DNA of 21,047 nt from positions 1-21,047 of IMG/VR virus record IMGVR_UViG_3300025818_000238. The stretch is one strand, 5' to 3'. The notes beneath the pieces are model-generated. The model did not search any database. It saw nothing but the letters and a program-made list of their open reading frames with translations, and had not been told where the DNA came from. This stretch comes from a virus. This document shows, in pieces, positions 1,280-17,851 of this stretch; the first letter of the stretch is position 1; every line of letters starts with the position of its first letter. The translations under genes were made by a program, and so were the position numbers.

Positions 1280-2035
1280 ATGTACATGCTAGAGAATGGT
1301 AAGATTGATGTTGTTGCGTACATGCAGCATGTGAGGGACACGAAAGCCAGGATACATGGGAAGCCCAAGACGCAGCCAGTAGTCATGCTGCCCAAGAAGC
1401 CAGAAGAAATTAAGGATGAAGAGAAAGCAAAACCTTTTGAAGATGTTGAGGCTCTTCCAGAACTTTCGCCTGGAAAGATTACAAGCCTAGACATCTTGAA
1501 GGTAGTTGCTCATGTAACCGGCATCTCTATTCCAGAGATCAGATCTAGTCGGCGGCAAAAAGAGTTGGTCCGCGCCAGGTTCCTTGCCTGTATATTAATC
1601 AAGGAACTAACCACCCTAAGCTATCCTGCTGCTGGCCGTGCAATGGGTGGTAGGGATCATACATCTATTCTTAACGCTGTCATTACTGGCACAAAAAGAA
1701 TGAAGGAAGATCAGACCTTTATGGCTGACTACCTGCGAATCAAAGATATTCTTGTAGAACAGAAGGATGAAGTAGAGATGGAACTCGTGAACGAAGTGCT
1801 TGAGCAAAGGAAAAAGGTTCACGGTTCATACGATGACTATGCCAACATCAACGGCAGCATAATGAAGATTGTCAGGAACACAGAGAACTATGACAAGCTA
1901 GACAACAAGGAGCGGTCATCTCTGGACATGATCCTGTCTAAGGTAAGCCGTATCCTATCTGGAGATCCACACTTCCAGGATCATTGGGTTGATATTGCTG
2001 GATATGCAACGCTTGTTGTTAAAGAAAAAGACTAA
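1280..2035 (+). CDS. DnaA domain IV-like DNA-binding protein fused to a DUF6378-like domain
   Basis: A 251-aa protein with two recognisable parts. Residues about 65-159 align by eye with domain IV of the replication initiator DnaA: ITSLDILKVVAHVTGISIPE, a basic loop SSRRQKELVRAR, and the signature GGRDHTSIL at 123-131 (GGRDHTTVL in E. coli). These are the residues that read the DnaA box. The AAA+ ATPase and domains I-II are missing. After a charged linker, residues about 172-248 (HGSYDDYANINGSIMKIVRN, RSSLDMILSKVSRIL, GDPHFQDHWVDIAGYATLV) match the pattern of DUF6378, a small helical phage/prophage domain of unknown function. AAGGA at 1267-1271 supports the start. The gene is last in the ssb-HTH-ardC operon. 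It may bind DnaA boxes in the host or phage origin, either to occupy them or to seed phage replication; which of these is not shown. The domain calls are good, the function is inferred. Confidence 0.83.
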   Translation: MYMLENGKIDVVAYMQHVRDTKARIHGKPKTQPVVMLPKKPEEIKDEEKAKPFEDVEALPELSPGKITSLDILKVVAHVTGISIPEIRSSRRQKELVRARFLACILIKELTTLSYPAAGRAMGGRDHTSILNAVITGTKRMKEDQTFMADYLRIKDILVEQKDEVEMELVNEVLEQRKKVHGSYDDYANINGSIMKIVRNTENYDKLDNKERSSLDMILSKVSRILSGDPHFQDHWVDIAGYATLVVKEKD

Positions 2036-2391
2036 CGCTGTACTCTTCTTAGCCCGAATCGCCAGGTATGGTTAGCCATGAACTTGGCGGTTCGGTCTAC
2101 TGTTTCTTCTGATAGATCTGGCAATGCTATGTGCAGCAATTCATGCAGCAGAACTTCCTGCTGTAGCTTATGTCTAAGCCTGGAATCTATTTCTATCAGT
2201 GGCCTATCATAATAGGCCCAGCCCAGAACTCGATCCCTGCCCAGCTTGCGTTCAATTATTTTTATTTGCTGGCTTGTCGGCAGGTGGTCCGCTTCTGATG
2301 AATCCTGAACTGGTACTTCCTTCGAGGTATGAGCAGTAATCTTCGAGCCAGAGGATCGTCGCTGCCAGGTAGTACGCCGCTTGGTCGCCAT
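2032..2391 (-). CDS. Small HExxH metallopeptidase-like protein
   Basis: A 119-aa protein if it starts at the ATG at 2391. It has a basic, apparently disordered N-terminus (MATKRRTTWQRRS) and a compact C-terminal half. That half contains LGWAYYDRPLIEIDSRLR, then the zinc-binding motif in EVLLHELLHIALP (H83, E84, H87), then LSEETVDRTAKFMANHTW with a possible third acidic ligand. The order GW...ID..L followed by HExLH and a helix ending in TWRFG is found in small SprT-like or zincin proteins of phages. A GGAAG lies just upstream of 2391. A longer form from TTG at 2436 is open but less likely. It overlaps the 63-aa gene by 140 nt in another frame, and its stop overlaps the stop of the opposing DnaA-like gene. 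The substrate is unknown; proteolysis itself is inferred from the motif only. Confidence 0.72.
   Translation of the reverse strand: MATKRRTTWQRRSSGSKITAHTSKEVPVQDSSEADHLPTSQQIKIIERKLGRDRVLGWAYYDRPLIEIDSRLRHKLQQEVLLHELLHIALPDLSEETVDRTAKFMANHTWRFGLRRVQR
2054..2095 (+). terminator. Long hairpin, probable plus-strand terminator inside a convergent gene
   Basis: The arm CCGAATCGCCAGGT (2054-2067) pairs with ACTTGGCGGTTCGG (2082-2095): 14 bp, with two positions that are G-U wobbles only in plus-strand RNA. The interior continues as ATGG (2068-2071) with CCAT (2076-2079) around a TTAG loop, with a two-base bulge at 2080-2081. It starts 19 nt after the stop of the DnaA-like gene. A T-rich but imperfect tract (GTTTCTTCT, 2102-2110) follows. 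The wobbles become C-A mismatches in minus-strand RNA, so the fold favours plus-strand transcripts. The hairpin is clear; termination is inferred and the U-tract is weak. Confidence 0.55.
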
Positions 2392-2443
2392 GCTTTTCTT
2401 CCGCCTTCTTGACGAGATCACGCACTTCAGAATCAATCACCAT
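2252..2443 (-). CDS. Small protein of unknown function
   Basis: A 63-aa protein that I do not recognise. The first 40 residues look helical and mixed-charge (SEVRDLVKKAEEKHG, then AAYYLAATILWLEDYCSYLE); the last 20 are Gly, Pro, Ser and Asn rich and probably unstructured. The ATG at 2443 is preferred over the ATG at 2497: GGAGA sits 6-7 nt before it, and the start overlaps the phosphoesterase stop by only 11 nt, a coupled arrangement. The second half of this gene is read in another frame by the metallopeptidase-like gene (2252-2391), so one stretch of DNA serves two proteins unless the second gene starts later. The good ribosome-binding site argues that this is a real gene despite its size. 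Confidence 0.55.
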   Translation of the reverse strand: MVIDSEVRDLVKKAEEKHGDQAAYYLAATILWLEDYCSYLEGSTSSGFIRSGPPADKPANKNN

Positions 2444-3395
2444 ATCTGCTCTCCAGGTCTGCCATTGATGTGTATGAATGTCCGACAATGTGGCCATCTC
2501 TTATGCTCAAAGACCAGACGCCATACGCCCAGCCAGTCATGGACTTGCCAGCGTAATACTTGACTAGCCCCTGCGGCATGGCGGTTCCAAGGTTTAGTAT
2601 CTCAACTGATTTGGCTGGACCTATTTTAGGCACAGATACTTCCGCCTTGCGATGGCTATGACCAAACACAATTGAGAACACAGCATCGTTGGCAATCGTG
2701 TTGACCGTCTTGCCGCCGTACTCGCGGCCCATCAGATTGTGCGGTACATGGGTAAAGCCAACGCCATTGATGAATAGCCACTGGCCGTATGCGTATGACT
2801 TCCAACCGTAGTTCTTAAAGAGAACATCGCGCCGGTCGGCAAAGGATAGCCCCTTGCTTTCTGGCTGCTCATTGTCCCAGCGTTCGAGCCGCTCCTCGTG
2901 GTTGCCATAGGTAATATGGCAGGGCGGTCCGTCCTTCAGGATCTTGCGGAACTGGCTGAGAACTTCCTCGGCGCTATCCAGATCATCGACGAAGGCAGGC
3001 TTGTCGGCGTAGCCAATCGTGCCAGGCTTCTCGTGCTTCGACAGGCTGTTCCAGTCTGCGAAGTCTCCGATCTGTACAACCAGATCAGGGTTTGTATCTG
3101 CAATGTATCGAGCGATCCATTTGATTCGAGACTTGTCCTGACCGGGGCAGTCATGGAAATCGCCAATGGCGCAGATGGTAACAGTCTCTTTCTTGATCTT
3201 AAGGTTGACAGGTTCAAGCGGTAGCTTGGGCTGGTTCGGTTTGATCCGTATGCCTTGCACCATCAGCCGCTCCAGATGCTTGTTGATTGTGCCTTGAGAT
3301 ATACCCAATGCGGCGGCAGCAGAGCGTCGGCTACCATGTTTCTCGACGGCTTCCTTGATCTGCTTCTGCCGGGCAGTCGGCTTTGCGGTAGTCAT
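2433..3395 (-). CDS. Calcineurin-like metallophosphoesterase with N-terminal helix-turn-helix
   Basis: A 320-aa protein. Residues about 6-48 form a helix-turn-helix (ARQKQIKEAVEKHGSRRS, AAALGISQGTINKHLERL) like those of small terminases or FIS-type domains. After a Pro-rich linker comes a complete calcineurin-type phosphoesterase with its metal-binding motifs in order: GDFHD (78-82), GDFADW (110-115), GNHEE (164-168), FTH (about 214-216) and GHSH (245-248). Such enzymes hydrolyse phosphodiesters or phosphomonoesters using two metal ions, so the protein could be a DNA or RNA phosphodiesterase, phosphatase or cyclic-nucleotide hydrolase. The ATG at 3395 is chosen because it overlaps the o-spanin stop as TAATG; a GTG at 3407 would add four residues. 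It sits after the lysis genes and before the 63-aa gene. The enzyme class is firm, the substrate unknown. Confidence 0.85.
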   Translation of the reverse strand: MTTAKPTARQKQIKEAVEKHGSRRSAAAALGISQGTINKHLERLMVQGIRIKPNQPKLPLEPVNLKIKKETVTICAIGDFHDCPGQDKSRIKWIARYIADTNPDLVVQIGDFADWNSLSKHEKPGTIGYADKPAFVDDLDSAEEVLSQFRKILKDGPPCHITYGNHEERLERWDNEQPESKGLSFADRRDVLFKNYGWKSYAYGQWLFINGVGFTHVPHNLMGREYGGKTVNTIANDAVFSIVFGHSHRKAEVSVPKIGPAKSVEILNLGTAMPQGLVKYYAGKSMTGWAYGVWSLSIRDGHIVGHSYTSMADLESRYGD

Positions 3396-3613
3396 TACCG
3401 CTTGCACCAGCCAGTGCGCCTGGCATTGTTAACCTTAACCGCAACAATAGTCTGGTCGGTATCTTTCTTCGACCAGGCAATTGGTTGCCAGACCTGGCAG
3501 ACGGAAGTGTTAGTCGCGACGGTACCCGTCATCTTCGCGCACCCGGCTGGGATCGCGGCTGATAGAATCGCCAGCAGCAAGGGCGTCTTGGGTACGTCTG
3601 AGAATATCTTCAT
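3395..3613 (-). CDS. Rz1-like outer-membrane spanin (putative)
   Basis: A 72-aa protein nested at its 5' end in the i-spanin gene, in another frame. Residues 10-24 are hydrophobic and lead to Cys25 (LLLAILSAAIPAGC), a lipoprotein-like signal, although Pro at -3 is not a typical lipobox. The rest fits small phage o-spanins: VCQVWQPIAWSKKDTDQTI followed by VNNARRTGWC, with two Cys near the ends and the pattern PI..S..DT..T. Rz1-type lipoproteins sit in the outer membrane and pair with the inner-membrane Rz protein to fuse the membranes in the last step of lysis. GAGG about 9 nt upstream supports the ATG at 3613. Position (after lysozyme, overlapping Rz) is the strongest argument. Confidence is moderate because of the odd lipobox. 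Confidence 0.62.
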   Translation of the reverse strand: MKIFSDVPKTPLLLAILSAAIPAGCAKMTGTVATNTSVCQVWQPIAWSKKDTDQTIVAVKVNNARRTGWCKR

Positions 3614-3740
3614 TATTCTTGGCCTCAAGTTTTTGCCTAGCATCCCTTCGGCCCTTACCATAGATTGAGCCAATAGCCAATAGTATGCCAAGAGCAATAG
3701 ACACCCAGCGCATGACTGGACTTAGGATCCAGTTAATCAT
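3510..3740 (-). CDS. Rz-like inner-membrane spanin (putative)
   Basis: A 76-aa protein with a short cytoplasmic N-terminus, one membrane segment at about residues 10-28 (MRWVSIALGILLAIGSIYG), then a charged helical stretch (KGRRDARQKLEAKNNEDILR) and a polar tail ending DDGYRRD. This N-in, C-out layout and small size fit an i-spanin, which spans the periplasm with the Rz1-like partner to disrupt the outer membrane. It is much shorter than lambda Rz (153 aa), like other compact phage i-spanins. The start overlaps the lysozyme stop as ATGA (3737-3740), suggesting coupling. Its last 104 nt also encode the start of the Rz1-like protein in another frame, the classical Rz/Rz1 arrangement. The call rests mainly on topology and context. 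Confidence 0.65.
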   Translation of the reverse strand: MINWILSPVMRWVSIALGILLAIGSIYGKGRRDARQKLEAKNNEDILRRTQDALAAGDSISRDPSRVREDDGYRRD

Positions 3741-4462
3741 GCCGCCTCCTCGTCAAGCCGACGCTTGCGCCAGTACCAGATGCCGATGCAAGCAAGTGTG
3801 GCAATGATTGCCATGAATACGGCAGGCCTCCCCAGTGCCTCCACAGCCCCAGTGAGGGCGCTATTGGCATCTTGGATAACAGGGACCACCTCCCTAGCTG
3901 CGGCCACCACAGAGGCTCCGCCGGCCACCACGGCGGCATTGGCCTCCTTGCTCTTGGCAATAGACTTGCTAGCCACAGGCTGATCTGGCTGGACCCTACT
4001 GCCATCAGGCTCGATGCCTGACAGGCTACGCCACATCTCTACCTCTGCCCGGCGACGGCGAACTAGACCGGCAAGCTGACGACCACCTCCCCTAGTCCAC
4101 TTCATAAACTCAGCCGGAACGTCATCAAATCGCTTGGCATTGACACGCTTGAGCAGGGTTGATTTCTTGAGAGCGCCCAACCCACAGTTGTAGGAAAAAC
4201 TGACCAGCGCATCGAACTGGTTCTGGGTCAGATCCACCTTGACCAGGCTCTCGACGCCACGCTCAAAGCGACCCAGATCTGCCCGAAGGATAGCAGTTGC
4301 CTCGTCCTTGGTGATGGTCATCCTGGGTTCGACAGTCGGCTTGCCAGCCGCAGACGTGTGACCATATCCAATGGTCAAAATGCCAGCCGGACAGACATAG
4401 CTGGTCAACCGGAGGCCCTCGAATAGCTGGATCAGCCGTATTCCGTCATCGCTTATCTTCAT
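3737..4462 (-). CDS. GH24 (T4-type) lysozyme with C-terminal membrane anchor, endolysin
   Basis: A 241-aa endolysin that cuts the glycan strands of peptidoglycan. Residues 1-150 are a GH24 lysozyme: FEGLRLTSYVCPAGILTIGY with Glu15 as the catalytic acid, Cys24 where T4 lysozyme has Asp20, and Thr30, then GYGHT and the core ALVSFSYNCGLGALKKSTLL. Cys in the second position (E-C-T) is seen in many phage lysozymes. Residues about 151-210 form a Pro, Ser and Ala-rich linker, followed by a membrane segment at about 213-230 (PAVFMAIIATLACIGIWYW) and a charged end RKRRLDEEAA. There is no N-terminal signal-anchor, so export is not of the usual SAR type. AAAGGTGG seven nt upstream supports the ATG at 4462. 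It overlaps the holin gene by 17 nt and the i-spanin by 4 nt. Confidence 0.9.
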   Translation of the reverse strand: MKISDDGIRLIQLFEGLRLTSYVCPAGILTIGYGHTSAAGKPTVEPRMTITKDEATAILRADLGRFERGVESLVKVDLTQNQFDALVSFSYNCGLGALKKSTLLKRVNAKRFDDVPAEFMKWTRGGGRQLAGLVRRRRAEVEMWRSLSGIEPDGSRVQPDQPVASKSIAKSKEANAAVVAGGASVVAAAREVVPVIQDANSALTGAVEALGRPAVFMAIIATLACIGIWYWRKRRLDEEAA

Positions 4463-5181: not shown

Positions 5182-7125
5182 GATTGCTAGAAAGATGTAC
5201 GATCCACCGTTGGCGTTGATTGCCGCTGGCGCTGTGCTGCTAATTTCAAAGCCGGCAGAGTATGGATCGATGTAGTCGGTGTTTGTCACCTGCGCGGCAT
5301 CACTGTTGAGTCGCACGTAAGGATCATTACCAGCGACGATGCCGCGAGCAGAGTCCCACATATACCAATCACCAATGCCGTCAACGCGTTTGATAACTAC
5401 GAACCTAGCACCGCTGGAGAACCCGCAGTTAATTTGATTGGTGGTTCCGGTGCCGGTGTAGGAGCCTACTTTGGATACGCCGGGGAGGGTGGCGAATAGG
5501 TAGGCTATGTAGTTGTTACCAGATGCGTTTGTCCCACCATACGTACCAACTTTGAAATATGTACTTGTGTGCGCTGCATCAGAGCCAAACGCAAAGTCGT
5601 TAAACTGCGTAGCTTGGTTTGTTATAAAAACCATATTTACGCCCAATGCTGTGTGATTTACACACCATTGCTGTGATCCGGGGGCAACCGGGCCCGACCT
5701 TGCCTTAACGATAATCATCTCAGGAGCAACGCCTAAGTTATGATTTACTGTGGTGGCAGAACCCGTCCCAGTATAGCACACCACATCAAAGAAGCCGGGG
5801 GCGCGGCGGAACATCCAAGATCGAATATCAGTGCTAGGGGTTGTGTTTATATCATAAAACCATCCGTTTGAGTAATCGGTGGCATAGTCAGTGCCGGGTG
5901 AAAAACCGTCTGTATCATTTGTTCTTAAAAAACCTTCACCAGGAAGCCTAGATACTGCTAAAAAAGCAGTGGTAAAACTTAAATTTTTTTGCAACGCAAA
6001 GTCTACAGGCCATTCGCTATAAAAGTTTGGTTGTGTTGCGTTGGTGCTATTTTTTGTATCAGTAGTATACACCTCCGTACCACTCGTCGGCACCTTCATA
6101 GGACCTCGGCGGATGGCGATGTAGATGTAGGTTGAGCTAGATGCATTAGTTCCCGCATGTGAGCTAGTTAATTTAAAGCCCGTGGAAGTATAATCAATCC
6201 AAGAAGCTCCCGATTCGGAGGAATTAGAGTTGCAATACATAACTTGGTCATCACCACCAGTAGCAACTCCACGCATGTTATCGTGCATCACCCAGTTGCC
6301 GCCAGTTGCTGATGATCTTTTTATAATCGTCCACTGAGGCTCAAACCCTAAGTCAATCACAGGGCCATCAGTAGAGCCATTACCAGTATAACTTCCACAC
6401 GAAATCACATTCTCCGTACCATCCTCCCCAAAGCCCCCAGCGTCGTGGGCGAAGAGGTAGGCTACATAAGTGCCACCAATACCGTTTATGTCTGAGTGAC
6501 CGCCAAGAGTTATAGCTGTGTTAGAAGCATGTGTACTATTCCAGTAATTATTACCGACACCCAGCGCAGCAGTACTATTGAGATACATTGTTTTGTTGCC
6601 GCTAAGGTCTAAACTTCTATGCTGTACTATCCAGTTTTGTCCGGTGTCTATACGCTTACAAATAACCATTCCGGGCGTTGACCCAAGATTATGCGGTAAC
6701 TGCCTGCCATTAACACCATCCCCCGTATAAGTCACCACATCAAAGAACTTCTCAGCCTTGCGGAAGGTCCATGAGGCGTAGTTGGCTCCGGAACTATTGA
6801 TTTGTGCATTAACTCCAATGTCAAACCCATCGGAGTTAAAAGCTCTTAAATGTGTTATATTATAAAATTCTGCCCCTTCGTTATTTGACTCTAAATACTT
6901 GTAAATTCCTCTTTCTGTGTCGTATAGCGCATGATCATACGCATTAACTCTGTCTTTAATCCAAACCAACCCACCCTCACCAGCAAGGTCAATCCCGTTG
7001 GTGATGGTCTGGTTGCCGCCGGTGCCTGTGTAAAGGTTGGTGGAAAATACGTCATCGATATAAAGCGGGCCGCTACTACCACCACCTACGCCAGCCGCAG
7101 CCAGTATGATATCTTTGGTTGCCAT
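5176..7125 (-). CDS. Tail fibre / adhesin built of repeated beta modules (DUF7483-like)
   Basis: A 649-aa protein rich in Gly, Asn, Ser and Thr, with no signal peptide. It consists of diverged repeats of about 95 residues. Type B units at about 127-226 and 445-546 read FFDVVTYTGDG, HNLGSTPGMVICKR, W.V.H and end YVAYLFA. Type A units at about 31-122, 245-340 and 554-649 read SYTGTG, GFEPQWTIIKR, W.MWDSARG. A degenerate region lies at 350-440. This pattern is common in putative fibre proteins of environmental phages and matches DUF7483-like domains. The modules are probably beta structures exposed for receptor binding. The ATG at 7125 overlaps the stop of the collagen-like fibre (TAATG); an in-frame start at 7161 lies within that gene and is less likely. 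It is followed by the fibre chaperone, supporting a receptor-binding role. Confidence 0.83.
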   Translation of the reverse strand: MATKDIILAAAGVGGGSSGPLYIDDVFSTNLYTGTGGNQTITNGIDLAGEGGLVWIKDRVNAYDHALYDTERGIYKYLESNNEGAEFYNITHLRAFNSDGFDIGVNAQINSSGANYASWTFRKAEKFFDVVTYTGDGVNGRQLPHNLGSTPGMVICKRIDTGQNWIVQHRSLDLSGNKTMYLNSTAALGVGNNYWNSTHASNTAITLGGHSDINGIGGTYVAYLFAHDAGGFGEDGTENVISCGSYTGNGSTDGPVIDLGFEPQWTIIKRSSATGGNWVMHDNMRGVATGGDDQVMYCNSNSSESGASWIDYTSTGFKLTSSHAGTNASSSTYIYIAIRRGPMKVPTSGTEVYTTDTKNSTNATQPNFYSEWPVDFALQKNLSFTTAFLAVSRLPGEGFLRTNDTDGFSPGTDYATDYSNGWFYDINTTPSTDIRSWMFRRAPGFFDVVCYTGTGSATTVNHNLGVAPEMIIVKARSGPVAPGSQQWCVNHTALGVNMVFITNQATQFNDFAFGSDAAHTSTYFKVGTYGGTNASGNNYIAYLFATLPGVSKVGSYTGTGTTNQINCGFSSGARFVVIKRVDGIGDWYMWDSARGIVAGNDPYVRLNSDAAQVTNTDYIDPYSAGFEISSTAPAAINANGGSYIFLAIA

Positions 7126-8306
7126 TATTTTACGTCCAATCCTAAAACAAAGCCGGACCATGTAGTGCCGCCATCATGTGTAAAGAACGCAAGAACGTCA
7201 CGACCAGCAGCGGTTAGCGTAGGTGCTGTAGCAGCAGCCCACTTAACGCCAGACCACCATGTAACAGTGGCCGACCCACCGTTGGTCAAGTCCAAAACAA
7301 AAGCACCCACGGTGCCAGAAGGGGGGATATTGGATACCGTGAAGGTAGTAGCCCCAGATATTGTTTTCGAGAAGTACGAGCCTGCGGCGAGGTTGATGCT
7401 AGATGCAGCAACCGCCACCTTGGTTTCGTACAGCGCCACCGTGGTAACAGTCTTACCGGTCAGCGTCTGGGTATCCGTCGTGCCAACAATAGCCCCAGTC
7501 GGGAACGTAGGTAGCGTAGGCGTACCAGACAGGTCACCGTAGGCACCACTCGTAGCTACTGTCGCCAGCGTAGGTGTCCCGGTTAGATCACTATACGCCC
7601 CAGTAGCTGCCACTGTCGCCAGCGTAGGCGTACCCGATAGATCACCGTAGGCACCACTCGTTGCGACTGTTGCCAGCGTTGGCGTGCCAGTCAGATCTGT
7701 ATATGCACCAGTAGTAGCAACTGTCGCAAGCGTTGGTGTACCCGTAAGATCAGCATACGCACCGCTGGTAGCAACGGTGGCTAGAGAACTTGTATTAGCT
7801 TTTGCAGAAAGCAGAGTATCTACTTCTGTTTCAGTGTAATACATACTGTCATGGTTATGCACTGCCGCCGCAAAACTAGCTGGCGAGTATATGCTGTCTT
7901 TTATGTAATCTCCGCTAGTGCCATCAAAAAGCACAATGTTGCCATCAGTAGAACTGGCAGGACCAATAACGTCACCAGATCCTGTACCAGCAGCACCCGG
8001 CTCACCTTGTGGCCCCTGTGGTCCGGTTGCACCTGTGGCACCCGTAGCACCAGTAGCACCCGTAGCACCCGTTGGACCTGTTGGACCCTCCGGCCCTTGT
8101 GGTCCGGTGGCACCCGTAGCGCCTGTTGCACCCGTAGCACCAGTAGCACCTGCTGGACCTGGCGGACCCTCAGGCCCCTGCGGCCCAACAATGTTGCCAT
8201 CGTATGCAAATGTCTTGTTGCCCTGGTAGACTAGTGCCTTGCCAATGTTGGCATCGGACGGCTCTGGCATTCCCTTGACTTGGGACAGGCGGATCTTAGT
8301 AACCAT
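7125..8306 (-). CDS. Collagen-like tail fibre
   Basis: A 393-aa protein in four parts. Residues 1-40 form a short head-proximal part ([20 protein letters not shown]). Residues 41-109 hold 23 consecutive Gly-X-Y triplets, including two runs of five GAT, expected to form a triple-helical stalk. Residues 110-174 are a connector ([18 protein letters not shown]). Residues 175-264 are five tandem 18-aa repeats of the type [18 protein letters not shown], and residues 265-393 a compact tip domain ([44 protein letters not shown]). Collagen-like phage fibres are trimers, so this one probably is too. AAGGAG seven nt upstream supports the ATG at 8306; the start overlaps the 67-aa gene by 11 nt. The tip domain probably carries the receptor or surface-binding role, but its ligand is unknown. 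Confidence 0.87.
7515..7784 (-). repeat. Five tandem 54-bp repeats in the collagen-like fibre gene
   Basis: Five in-frame copies of a 54-bp unit encode residues 175-264, consensus LATVATxGAYxDLxGTPT. Copies 3 and 5 are identical in protein. The DNA differs mainly at third codon positions, so the array has been kept by selection on the protein and is not a fresh duplication. Similar units occur in other phage fibre stalks. Copy number could change by recombination, altering shaft length. Confidence 0.88.
7980..8186 (-). repeat. Collagen-type Gly-X-Y repeat tract
   Basis: Twenty-three uninterrupted Gly-X-Y codon triplets (residues 41-109 of the fibre). Two blocks begin GPQ GPE GP and each run into five GAT triplets; a third GPQ block closes the tract. 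The DNA is correspondingly repetitive, which produces long mirror frames on both strands that are not genes. Confidence 0.92.
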
Positions 8307-15469: not shown

Positions 15470-17851
15470 TTAGTCTCCCCTTGGCGTGTTTAATGGCAAG
15501 GCTCTATCCCTAAATTTAGGTTTATCAAAAAGCAAAGATTTATTTACCTTTGTTTTTGGTTCTTGAGGCACGGCTTTGCCGTCTGCCGGAATAAGTTTGT
15601 TTTTACTTACCTCGGCGGCATCAATAGGCGTCGTCCTTGAATAAGATTTGAAAGCATAAGGTGATGGAACTGCAACACCAAATGTTCCGACAGGAGCAAA
15701 ATCCGCTGCACCTCTAGAGTCTAGGTATACAGGGGGAATTGTTTCTGTTGGCCTAATTTTAGGCGTGCTAAAAAAGCCAGTAATAGATCTAGCCAGCGGA
15801 GAAATAATAGGCACACTTTGAGCAATAGACCTATTAGCTATATCTTTTTGGTTATCAAGAGTAGCCTTTCTCCTGGCTAAGTTTTCTTTAACTACAACTC
15901 TTGTAGGATCTATCTTTAATATTTCAGTTAAGTTGTTAACCAGAACAGGCGTTACACCCGAACCTTTATCGGGTGGTTTATACCAAACGGTCCATGTTTG
16001 GTTGGATTCCTTTTGGACAAATAATGTTTTTCCAAACAATAACTTTTTTGGATCAATAGCCTTAACGCCAGATCCAAGTACTACGTTTCCATCTTTGTCT
16101 TTTTTAAGATATTTTTCTAAACTTGGGACCATAGAGTTAAGATAGGAATAGTCTGGCGTACCATTGTTATCTACATATGGTAAACCACCATTTCCTTTTT
16201 TTGTAAAACCTTTTATCGCCTTTGGATTTTTAACCCAATCATTTTTAAAATTTGCAACAGCTTGTTTTACTATTTCTTCAATTGGCAATGTTTCCCTTCC
16301 AGCAAAAGTTGCCTTTAAGCTGTTAAACAAATCTTGTCGAGCATTAATTGATAAAGCTCCGTATTCTTTTGTTCCAATAGCTTTTCCCAACATCTCATCA
16401 AGATCGCTTTGTTTTATGTTTTTTGTGCTAGAAATAAGAGTCTTTATCTCTGAAATAGATCTAGTGGCATCGAAGTTAGTTAACGTTTGTTCTGCTAACT
16501 TAAACTTAACAGAAGGCTCTGTTGCTGGAGAAGAAACATAAGCATTAAAAAATATAGCACTTCTTGATGTGCCAGAAAGCATAGCTGGAGCCAATGATTT
16601 TGTGCTTTCCATGGCAAGAATTTGTCTATATTTTTGATAAAATGCCTCTGCTTTTTCTGGACTGGTCATAGCGTCCTGACGCTCTTTCATAAAGAAAGCG
16701 CCCACAAACACGCCGCCATTATTCTCAGCGGTTAATTTACCGAGAACAGCTGTCTCTGGCATACCGGTTGTCTTGGATATAAATTCTACAACTTTCTGAA
16801 AAGATCTTGTTGTTGTGCTACTTGGTATCTTATAAGGGTTATTTTTTGGTGCGCTAGAAATAGCAGTGTAAAGATTCATTTGTTCTTTTGTTAAACCAGT
16901 TGCATCAACATATCCCTTTCTTATAGCAGTTTTTGTTTTTTCAAGTTCTTTAGAAAGGCTCTCGCGATCAGAAGGTGACATTGCCCATAATTGCTTATGG
17001 GACATGCCAAATATTACTTCTTCTGAAGTAGGGTCTGGCGGATTTGTTAGCGCTCTCTGTGCGTAATCTAATAGTTTTAATTTGTTTGACAGAGAAATAG
17101 AGGAATCGCTAAGAGTTTTGTTTATTTCCTTTTGGAAGCCACCTGTTCTTTCGATAATTTCAAGTGTTTTTCTGGCGCTAGTTATTGCTTCTGGTCCAAG
17201 TTTCATCTTGCCCAAAAGGTTTTCTATTTCTTGCTTTGCTTTTTTTATACCAGCTACGTCACCTACTTTGCTTGCAGCAGCCAGGTTATTGAGTTCAGCG
17301 TTATATTGTTTAACAGCAAAATTACGAACACTTGCATCTGCTAAAATAGCTTCACGACGAGTGTTAGCATTATAGATTTGATTGCTAGACTTTCTTGCTT
17401 CATCCTCAATGACACCACGTGCTACTGGTGGCAAAGTTTTTTTAGCTGCTTCAATATATTCATCTGCTAATTTTTTAGCCTGAAGTGGATTGTCTAGATT
17501 TTTTGAATATATATCAGCAATTTTTGTTTTTGCATCGCTTGTTACGCCATCAACATAACGTTTGCGAACTAAATCAGTAAATATGTCTTTTCTATACTGA
17601 CCCCAATTTTCTGGAGGTTCAGGCATAATAAGGTTGCCATTAGCATCGCGCTCAAGCGATAAGCTGTATGCCCGTTCTTTGGCTTCACGTTCTGCACCTT
17701 CTTTGGCTTCCTGGACCCCAATACCTTCCATTGTCCTAGCAAGTTGCCGAACACCGGGAAGATCTACCGATGGCAGGTTTGTTCTGAATCCAAAGACCCG
17801 TCCAGAATCTGGGCGGAATGGTATAGACTGGACGAGAGGTTTGATTGCCAT
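15470..17851 (-). CDS. Internal virion protein (T7 gp15-like)
   Basis: A 793-aa protein close in size to T7 gp15 (747 aa) and in the expected position after the gp14-like gene. Residues 1-40 (RPDSGRVFGFRTNLPSVDLP) are followed by a helical stretch (VQEAKEGAEREAKERAYSLS) and long Lys- and Glu-rich helical segments; the last 130 residues are Pro, Ser and Lys rich and probably flexible. T7 gp15 with gp14 and gp16 forms the internal core and, after ejection, the trans-envelope channel. No enzyme motif is visible. The ribosome-binding site is weak (AGG about 12 nt upstream), as for the gp16-like gene. Sequence similarity to named families is not clear by eye; the call rests on size, composition and gene order. 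Confidence 0.75.
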   Translation of the reverse strand: MAIKPLVQSIPFRPDSGRVFGFRTNLPSVDLPGVRQLARTMEGIGVQEAKEGAEREAKERAYSLSLERDANGNLIMPEPPENWGQYRKDIFTDLVRKRYVDGVTSDAKTKIADIYSKNLDNPLQAKKLADEYIEAAKKTLPPVARGVIEDEARKSSNQIYNANTRREAILADASVRNFAVKQYNAELNNLAAASKVGDVAGIKKAKQEIENLLGKMKLGPEAITSARKTLEIIERTGGFQKEINKTLSDSSISLSNKLKLLDYAQRALTNPPDPTSEEVIFGMSHKQLWAMSPSDRESLSKELEKTKTAIRKGYVDATGLTKEQMNLYTAISSAPKNNPYKIPSSTTTRSFQKVVEFISKTTGMPETAVLGKLTAENNGGVFVGAFFMKERQDAMTSPEKAEAFYQKYRQILAMESTKSLAPAMLSGTSRSAIFFNAYVSSPATEPSVKFKLAEQTLTNFDATRSISEIKTLISSTKNIKQSDLDEMLGKAIGTKEYGALSINARQDLFNSLKATFAGRETLPIEEIVKQAVANFKNDWVKNPKAIKGFTKKGNGGLPYVDNNGTPDYSYLNSMVPSLEKYLKKDKDGNVVLGSGVKAIDPKKLLFGKTLFVQKESNQTWTVWYKPPDKGSGVTPVLVNNLTEILKIDPTRVVVKENLARRKATLDNQKDIANRSIAQSVPIISPLARSITGFFSTPKIRPTETIPPVYLDSRGAADFAPVGTFGVAVPSPYAFKSYSRTTPIDAAEVSKNKLIPADGKAVPQEPKTKVNKSLLFDKPKFRDRALPLNTPRGD

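Follow-up and report, generated by a model that had tools for sequence, protein, structure and literature searches.

Of the transcript ends that match intrinsic terminators in Zymomonas mobilis, 34% are reported to lie between convergent genes, versus 7.5% of other ends (PMC7566282), and in Bacillus cereus greater conservation is reported for convergent terminators that serve two genes (PMC5381666). At convergent gene pairs of Rickettsia prowazekii, transcripts are described as reaching into the convergent gene (PMC3027695), and such extension has been reviewed for bacteria generally (PMC7154746). The phage locus described here resembles each of these arrangements in part. Like intrinsic terminators between convergent genes, it has a GC-rich stem at a tail-to-tail junction and a U-tract in the plus-strand RNA, clear in two sister contigs and weak in the sequence under study; however, the signal lies wholly within the terminal part of the opposing coding sequence, with no intergenic space, and is seemingly one-directional. 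As in excludon-like and R. prowazekii overlaps, 3' transcript ends would fall in an opposing coding region (PMC3027695, PMC7154746), but those overlaps are ascribed to missing or leaky termination, whereas here a specific stem would, if it works, limit the overlap to ~75 nt. A literature search, which was not designed to establish priority, returned nothing on this phage.

The window is the whole stretch of DNA analyzed, 21,047 nt (positions 1 to 21,047 of IMG/VR record IMGVR_UViG_3300025818_000238), and represents a 21-kb virus fragment. Its left-hand, rightward genes encode a single-strand-binding-protein-like protein, an HTH protein (both labels assigned by eye), an ArdC-type antirestriction protein and a DnaA-C/DUF6378 protein. 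To the right of 2035, leftward genes encode an M78-like HELLH protein (ending at 2032), a metallophosphoesterase, an endolysin, tail proteins and internal virion proteins. Judged from this gene content, the two operons are probably early and late, respectively. They meet at 2032-2035, the sole convergent junction of the window, where the stop codons of the plus gene and the M78-like gene overlap by 4 nt and leave no spacer. The features of the junction are as follows.

1280-2035, plus strand: last rightward gene before the junction, a 251-aa protein with a DnaA C-terminal-type HTH and DUF6378 (translation and domain match).
2032-2436, minus strand: opposing gene, HELLH peptidase M78-like (PF06114 match below the gathering score), whose last codons encode the hairpin.
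2054-2095, plus strand: 18-pair stem-loop of 14 outer and 4 inner pairs with a GA bulge and a UUAG loop (by folding, -26.2 kcal/mol as plus RNA).
2050-2099, plus strand: extended stem, with three more pairs (UAG/CUA; 2050-2052/2097-2099) past a C/U mismatch (-28.6 kcal/mol).
2103-2110, plus strand: U-rich tract TTTCTTCT, separated by 7 nt from the 18-pair stem and by 3 nt from its extended form.

The M78-like gene more likely starts at the ATG at 2391 than at the TTG at 2436, to go by the start of the gene in the related contig L004. An 81-aa minus-strand frame at 2252-2497 overlaps the variable N-terminal half of this gene in another frame and is recognizably kept in contigs L002 to L006, so the region may be dual-coding. 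Beside the endolysin gene, at 3395-3740 on the minus strand, two overlapping frames resemble by eye an Rz/Rz1 (spanin) pair, one encoding a 76-aa protein anchored in the membrane and the other a lipoprotein that carries LSAAIPAGC. Farther on, the minus-strand frame at 7125-8306 encodes a tail-like protein with collagen-like repeats and a second repeat type.

Folding bore out the hairpin that a sequence-only reading had described, with 14 plus 4 pairs and a two-base bulge in 42 nt: the outer pairs join 2054-2067 to 2082-2095, the inner pairs join 2068-2071 to 2076-2079, the loop is 2072-2075 and the bulge is 2080-2081. That reading overlooked the three outer pairs beyond the C/U mismatch but was right that two wobbles, T2059-G2090 and G2065-T2084, pair in the plus RNA only, being mismatches in the minus RNA, and that the minus strand still codes for protein through the hairpin (TAKFMANHTWRF of the M78-like protein). 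It had also called for folding of both strands, and the 42-mer gave -26.2 kcal/mol (z -6.55) as plus RNA versus -18.2 kcal/mol (z -4.69) as minus RNA. The site therefore has the stable GC-rich stem-loop on the transcribed strand that marks an intrinsic terminator, and it has the expected position downstream of the gene served, since the stem starts 18 nt past the stop of the plus gene, within the final codons of the M78-like gene. The further suggestion that the stem is tuned for plus transcripts holds for the window, where it is far stronger as plus RNA, but not as a family trait, because the residual stem of the relative L005 is stronger as minus RNA. Across the 21,047-base window, no Rfam 15 structured RNA family was matched at the gathering score.

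The convergent position, the folding of the minus RNA and the presence of a true bidirectional terminator at the same place in the podovirus MW202640 would all suit a bidirectional terminator serving both operons. The stem plus U-tract on both strands that defines such an element was not found, however; on the minus strand the sequence beyond the stem is GGCTAAGAAGAG, without a U-tract, and the bases that follow the stem directly, GGCUAAGAAGAG, are not U. Moreover, the stem precedes the stop of the minus gene, so that termination of minus transcripts would cut the end off their own message, and the only minus-strand candidate at the junction, 2030-2077 (terminator score d, -0.4), is weak and has a different fold. 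A bidirectional terminator in the window was rejected on account of its wrong side for the minus gene and the missing U-tract, and we consider it very improbable.

We lean instead, with moderate confidence, toward the reading that 2050-2110 is a one-directional intrinsic (Rho-independent) terminator for plus-strand transcripts, embedded in the 3'-terminal coding sequence of the opposing gene. Candidates were scored with our own implementation of the terminator d-score (after d'Aubenton Carafa/Lesnik). With its U-tract set apart from the stem, the site received a borderline -1.7, the third-best plus-strand score in the window, behind 16145-16195 (10.6) and 452-472 (2.5). Both of these are intragenic and probably spurious, and since the score yields probable false positives of this kind, the borderline value is weak evidence. 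In a generic terminator scan of the window, whose rules demand a simple stem-loop with a T-run no more than 2 bases away, 2054-2095 was not listed.

The hairpin ranked first among the 21,006 plus-strand 42-nt windows, and 11 separate plus-strand loci reached -18 kcal/mol. With the amino acids fixed, none of 10,000 synonymous recodings matched -26.2 kcal/mol, either at the site itself or anywhere up to ~100 nt from the junction (the near-junction test tried every second start position). When synonymous codons were shuffled over the genes of the whole window (the HTH gene at 193-442 remaining mostly unpermuted), an equal or stronger hairpin appeared anywhere on the plus strand in 3 of 29 permutations and, with both strands counted, in 5 of 29, so hairpin strength alone is marginal for a 21-kb search. 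The earlier claim that the pairing is far more than expected by chance thus stands for this site but has little force for a hairpin selected out of 21 kb; the position of the hairpin supplies the extra weight. The strongest plus-strand hairpin of the window falls no more than 65 nt from its sole convergent junction; by simple arithmetic (100/21,047), the chance of its landing within 100 nt of the junction is ~0.5%. Together, strength at the site and position at the junction make a function likely but not certain. The second-strongest plus-strand hairpin, at 247-288 (-23.8 kcal/mol as plus RNA; -21.6 at 245-286 on the minus strand), lies near the start of the small HTH-protein gene and, among the six junction contigs described below, is covered by the identical L001 alone.

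These figures also bear on the possibility that the hairpin is a coding coincidence without function, in which conserved and partly complementary C-terminal codons (R-T-A-K vs T-W-R-F-G) drifted in one clade to near-perfect pairing. The whole-window permutations speak for it; the recodings at the site, and the fall of the strongest plus-strand hairpin just where a terminator is expected, speak against it.

Four protein scans of viral_contigs, two using the M78-like gene as query and two using the phosphoesterase, all recovered the same six junction contigs, L001 to L006. The last phosphoesterase scan also matched two distant phosphoesterases (L033 and L034), and a viral_contigs scan with the plus gene added L025 alone, a distant relative; all of these were left out of the comparison. 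A degenerate hairpin pattern found four contigs in viral_contigs, all already known junction carriers; no relatives were found by a scan of genome_contigs or by tblastn of the M78-like protein against "phages." L001 matches the window without a difference over 7,923 bases, and L003 shares its M78-like gene sequence with L002, so the 7 records compared supply 5 distinct junction sequences.

The junctions of L002 and L003 are the same as that of the window. Their M78-like gene differs from the window's at 18 positions in 402 nt, just one of them inside the hairpin, in the loop, so that all 18 pairs are retained. The 36 unchanged paired positions between the window and L002 were not significant alone (P = 0.18), which leaves room for coincidence. 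L002 and L003 carry C and G at window positions T2047 and T2101, and these close further outer pairs, so that the stem runs directly into UUUCUUCU. The extended stem reached -32.3 kcal/mol and a d-score of +18.0, the top plus-strand score on both contigs, and none of 1,600 recodings of the L002/L003 gene reached +10 (highest, -1.0), a result that argues against coincidence. As far as sequence can tell, the sister contigs have the better-formed version of the putative terminator. The adjoining U-tract bears as well on the idea that plus transcripts end farther on (for example, by Rho) and are trimmed back to a protective 3'-end hairpin; the very stable stem and weak U-tract of the window would suit trimming, but trimming has no need of a U-tract next to the stem, and we regard it as improbable.

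Among the more distant relatives, the stem is lost in L004 and L006 (folds of about -10 kcal/mol), and a 9-pair core is left in L005 (-17.7 kcal/mol as plus RNA versus -20.9 as minus RNA). The stem as such therefore belongs to the clade of the window, L001, L002 and L003. Pairing was found in 82% of cells across the 5 distinct sequences, a level that random re-dealing equals or beats, and none of the 18 pairs was altered on both sides, compensatory change being a supporting rather than a strictly defining sign. The sequence-only reading had offered stems broken in relatives as grounds for abandoning its proposal, and on that score the outcome is mixed, with pairing intact in L002 and L003, reduced in L005, broken in L004 and L006, and without covariation. 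A core already present in L005, free breakage in L004 and L006 and the missing covariation are what coincidence would predict; weighed with the recoding results, we hold coincidence to be rather unlikely.

The junctions of L004, L005 and L006 are all convergent, the plus stop preceding the end of the minus gene by 22, 227 and 99 nt, respectively. In L006 a separate hairpin and TTTGTTACTTTTT accompany the plus gene stop (d, 0.2). The L004 hairpin, whose core of 8 pairs spans the short spacer and the minus gene end, has a weak best plus score of -19.1, and at the L005 junction no good terminator candidate was found (best plus d, -14.5). Just past the 3' end of the M78-like gene, between the two operons, L005 and L006 share a short conserved leftward frame that opens with MMQGLVMTVGDAI, by eye a membrane peptide, which is absent from the window clade.

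The podovirus MW202640 (ctEw122), whose late operon end matches window positions 3416-4394 at 69%, carries at its convergent junction (5948-5966) a canonical bidirectional terminator, GCCGGGG-AATAA-CCCCGGC with A- and U-tracts, which scores highest on both strands across the 13 kb analyzed (d, 31.7 and 59.2). Like the window hairpin, it is located where the final rightward gene meets the terminal gene of the leftward lysis/late operon; unlike it, this terminator is a short perfect stem with tracts on both sides, sits in a 12-nt intergenic gap and is strong both ways. In MW202710 the genes overlap tail to tail by ~15 nt (by eye), with a weak hairpin (-11.2 kcal/mol plus, -14.0 minus) and no U-tract. 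MW202711 has a phosphoesterase relative and was not among the contigs scanned for terminators. Of the five other junctions examined, two (L005 and MW202710) showed no terminator, and that of L004 was weak. These comparisons fit a pattern in which the junction often bears a terminator whose sequence is readily replaced and which, in the window clade, appears to have been placed inside the opposing gene. The best reading is that the window-clade terminator is recent and replaceable.

Under the one-way terminator reading, RNA polymerase transcribing the rightward DNA-metabolism (probably early) genes would pass the plus stop at 2035, transcribe the stem-loop at 2050-2099 and then the tract at 2103-2110, and release; release there would spare the leftward lysis and tail genes an antisense run. 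The overlap of the stop codons leaves no spacer, and the terminator would be encoded through synonymous codons at the C-terminal end of the M78-like protein. In the minus RNA the two G-U pairs turn into A-C mismatches and no U-tract comes after the stem, so minus transcripts should read through to their own gene end. The structure, the position, the strand asymmetry, the upkeep and strengthening in the sister clade and the MW202640 equivalent were observed; from them we infer that termination occurs and separates early from late transcription. The original proposal of a plus-strand terminator between early and late genes is accordingly upheld by position, plus-strand strength, L002/L003 and MW202640 and weakened by the detached U-tract, the borderline score and the broken stems of L004 and L006. 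At the Escherichia coli terminator tR2, a stop-to-terminator distance of less than ~27 nt is reported to have lowered termination via translation up to the stop (PMC4824070); a similar effect may count against a terminator here, with the stem 18 nt past the stop.

A more tentative possibility is that loss of the inter-operon spacer moved an intergenic terminator into the opposing gene, making it dual-coded and direction-selective through synonymous and wobble choices. The hairpin is probably a neat yet ordinary transcription terminator of an already known kind. It would be of no more than ordinary interest if it did not work; if it does, one stretch of DNA would encode a conserved protein terminus while also acting as a one-way terminator, a compact case that would show phages keeping opposed operons apart without intergenic space.
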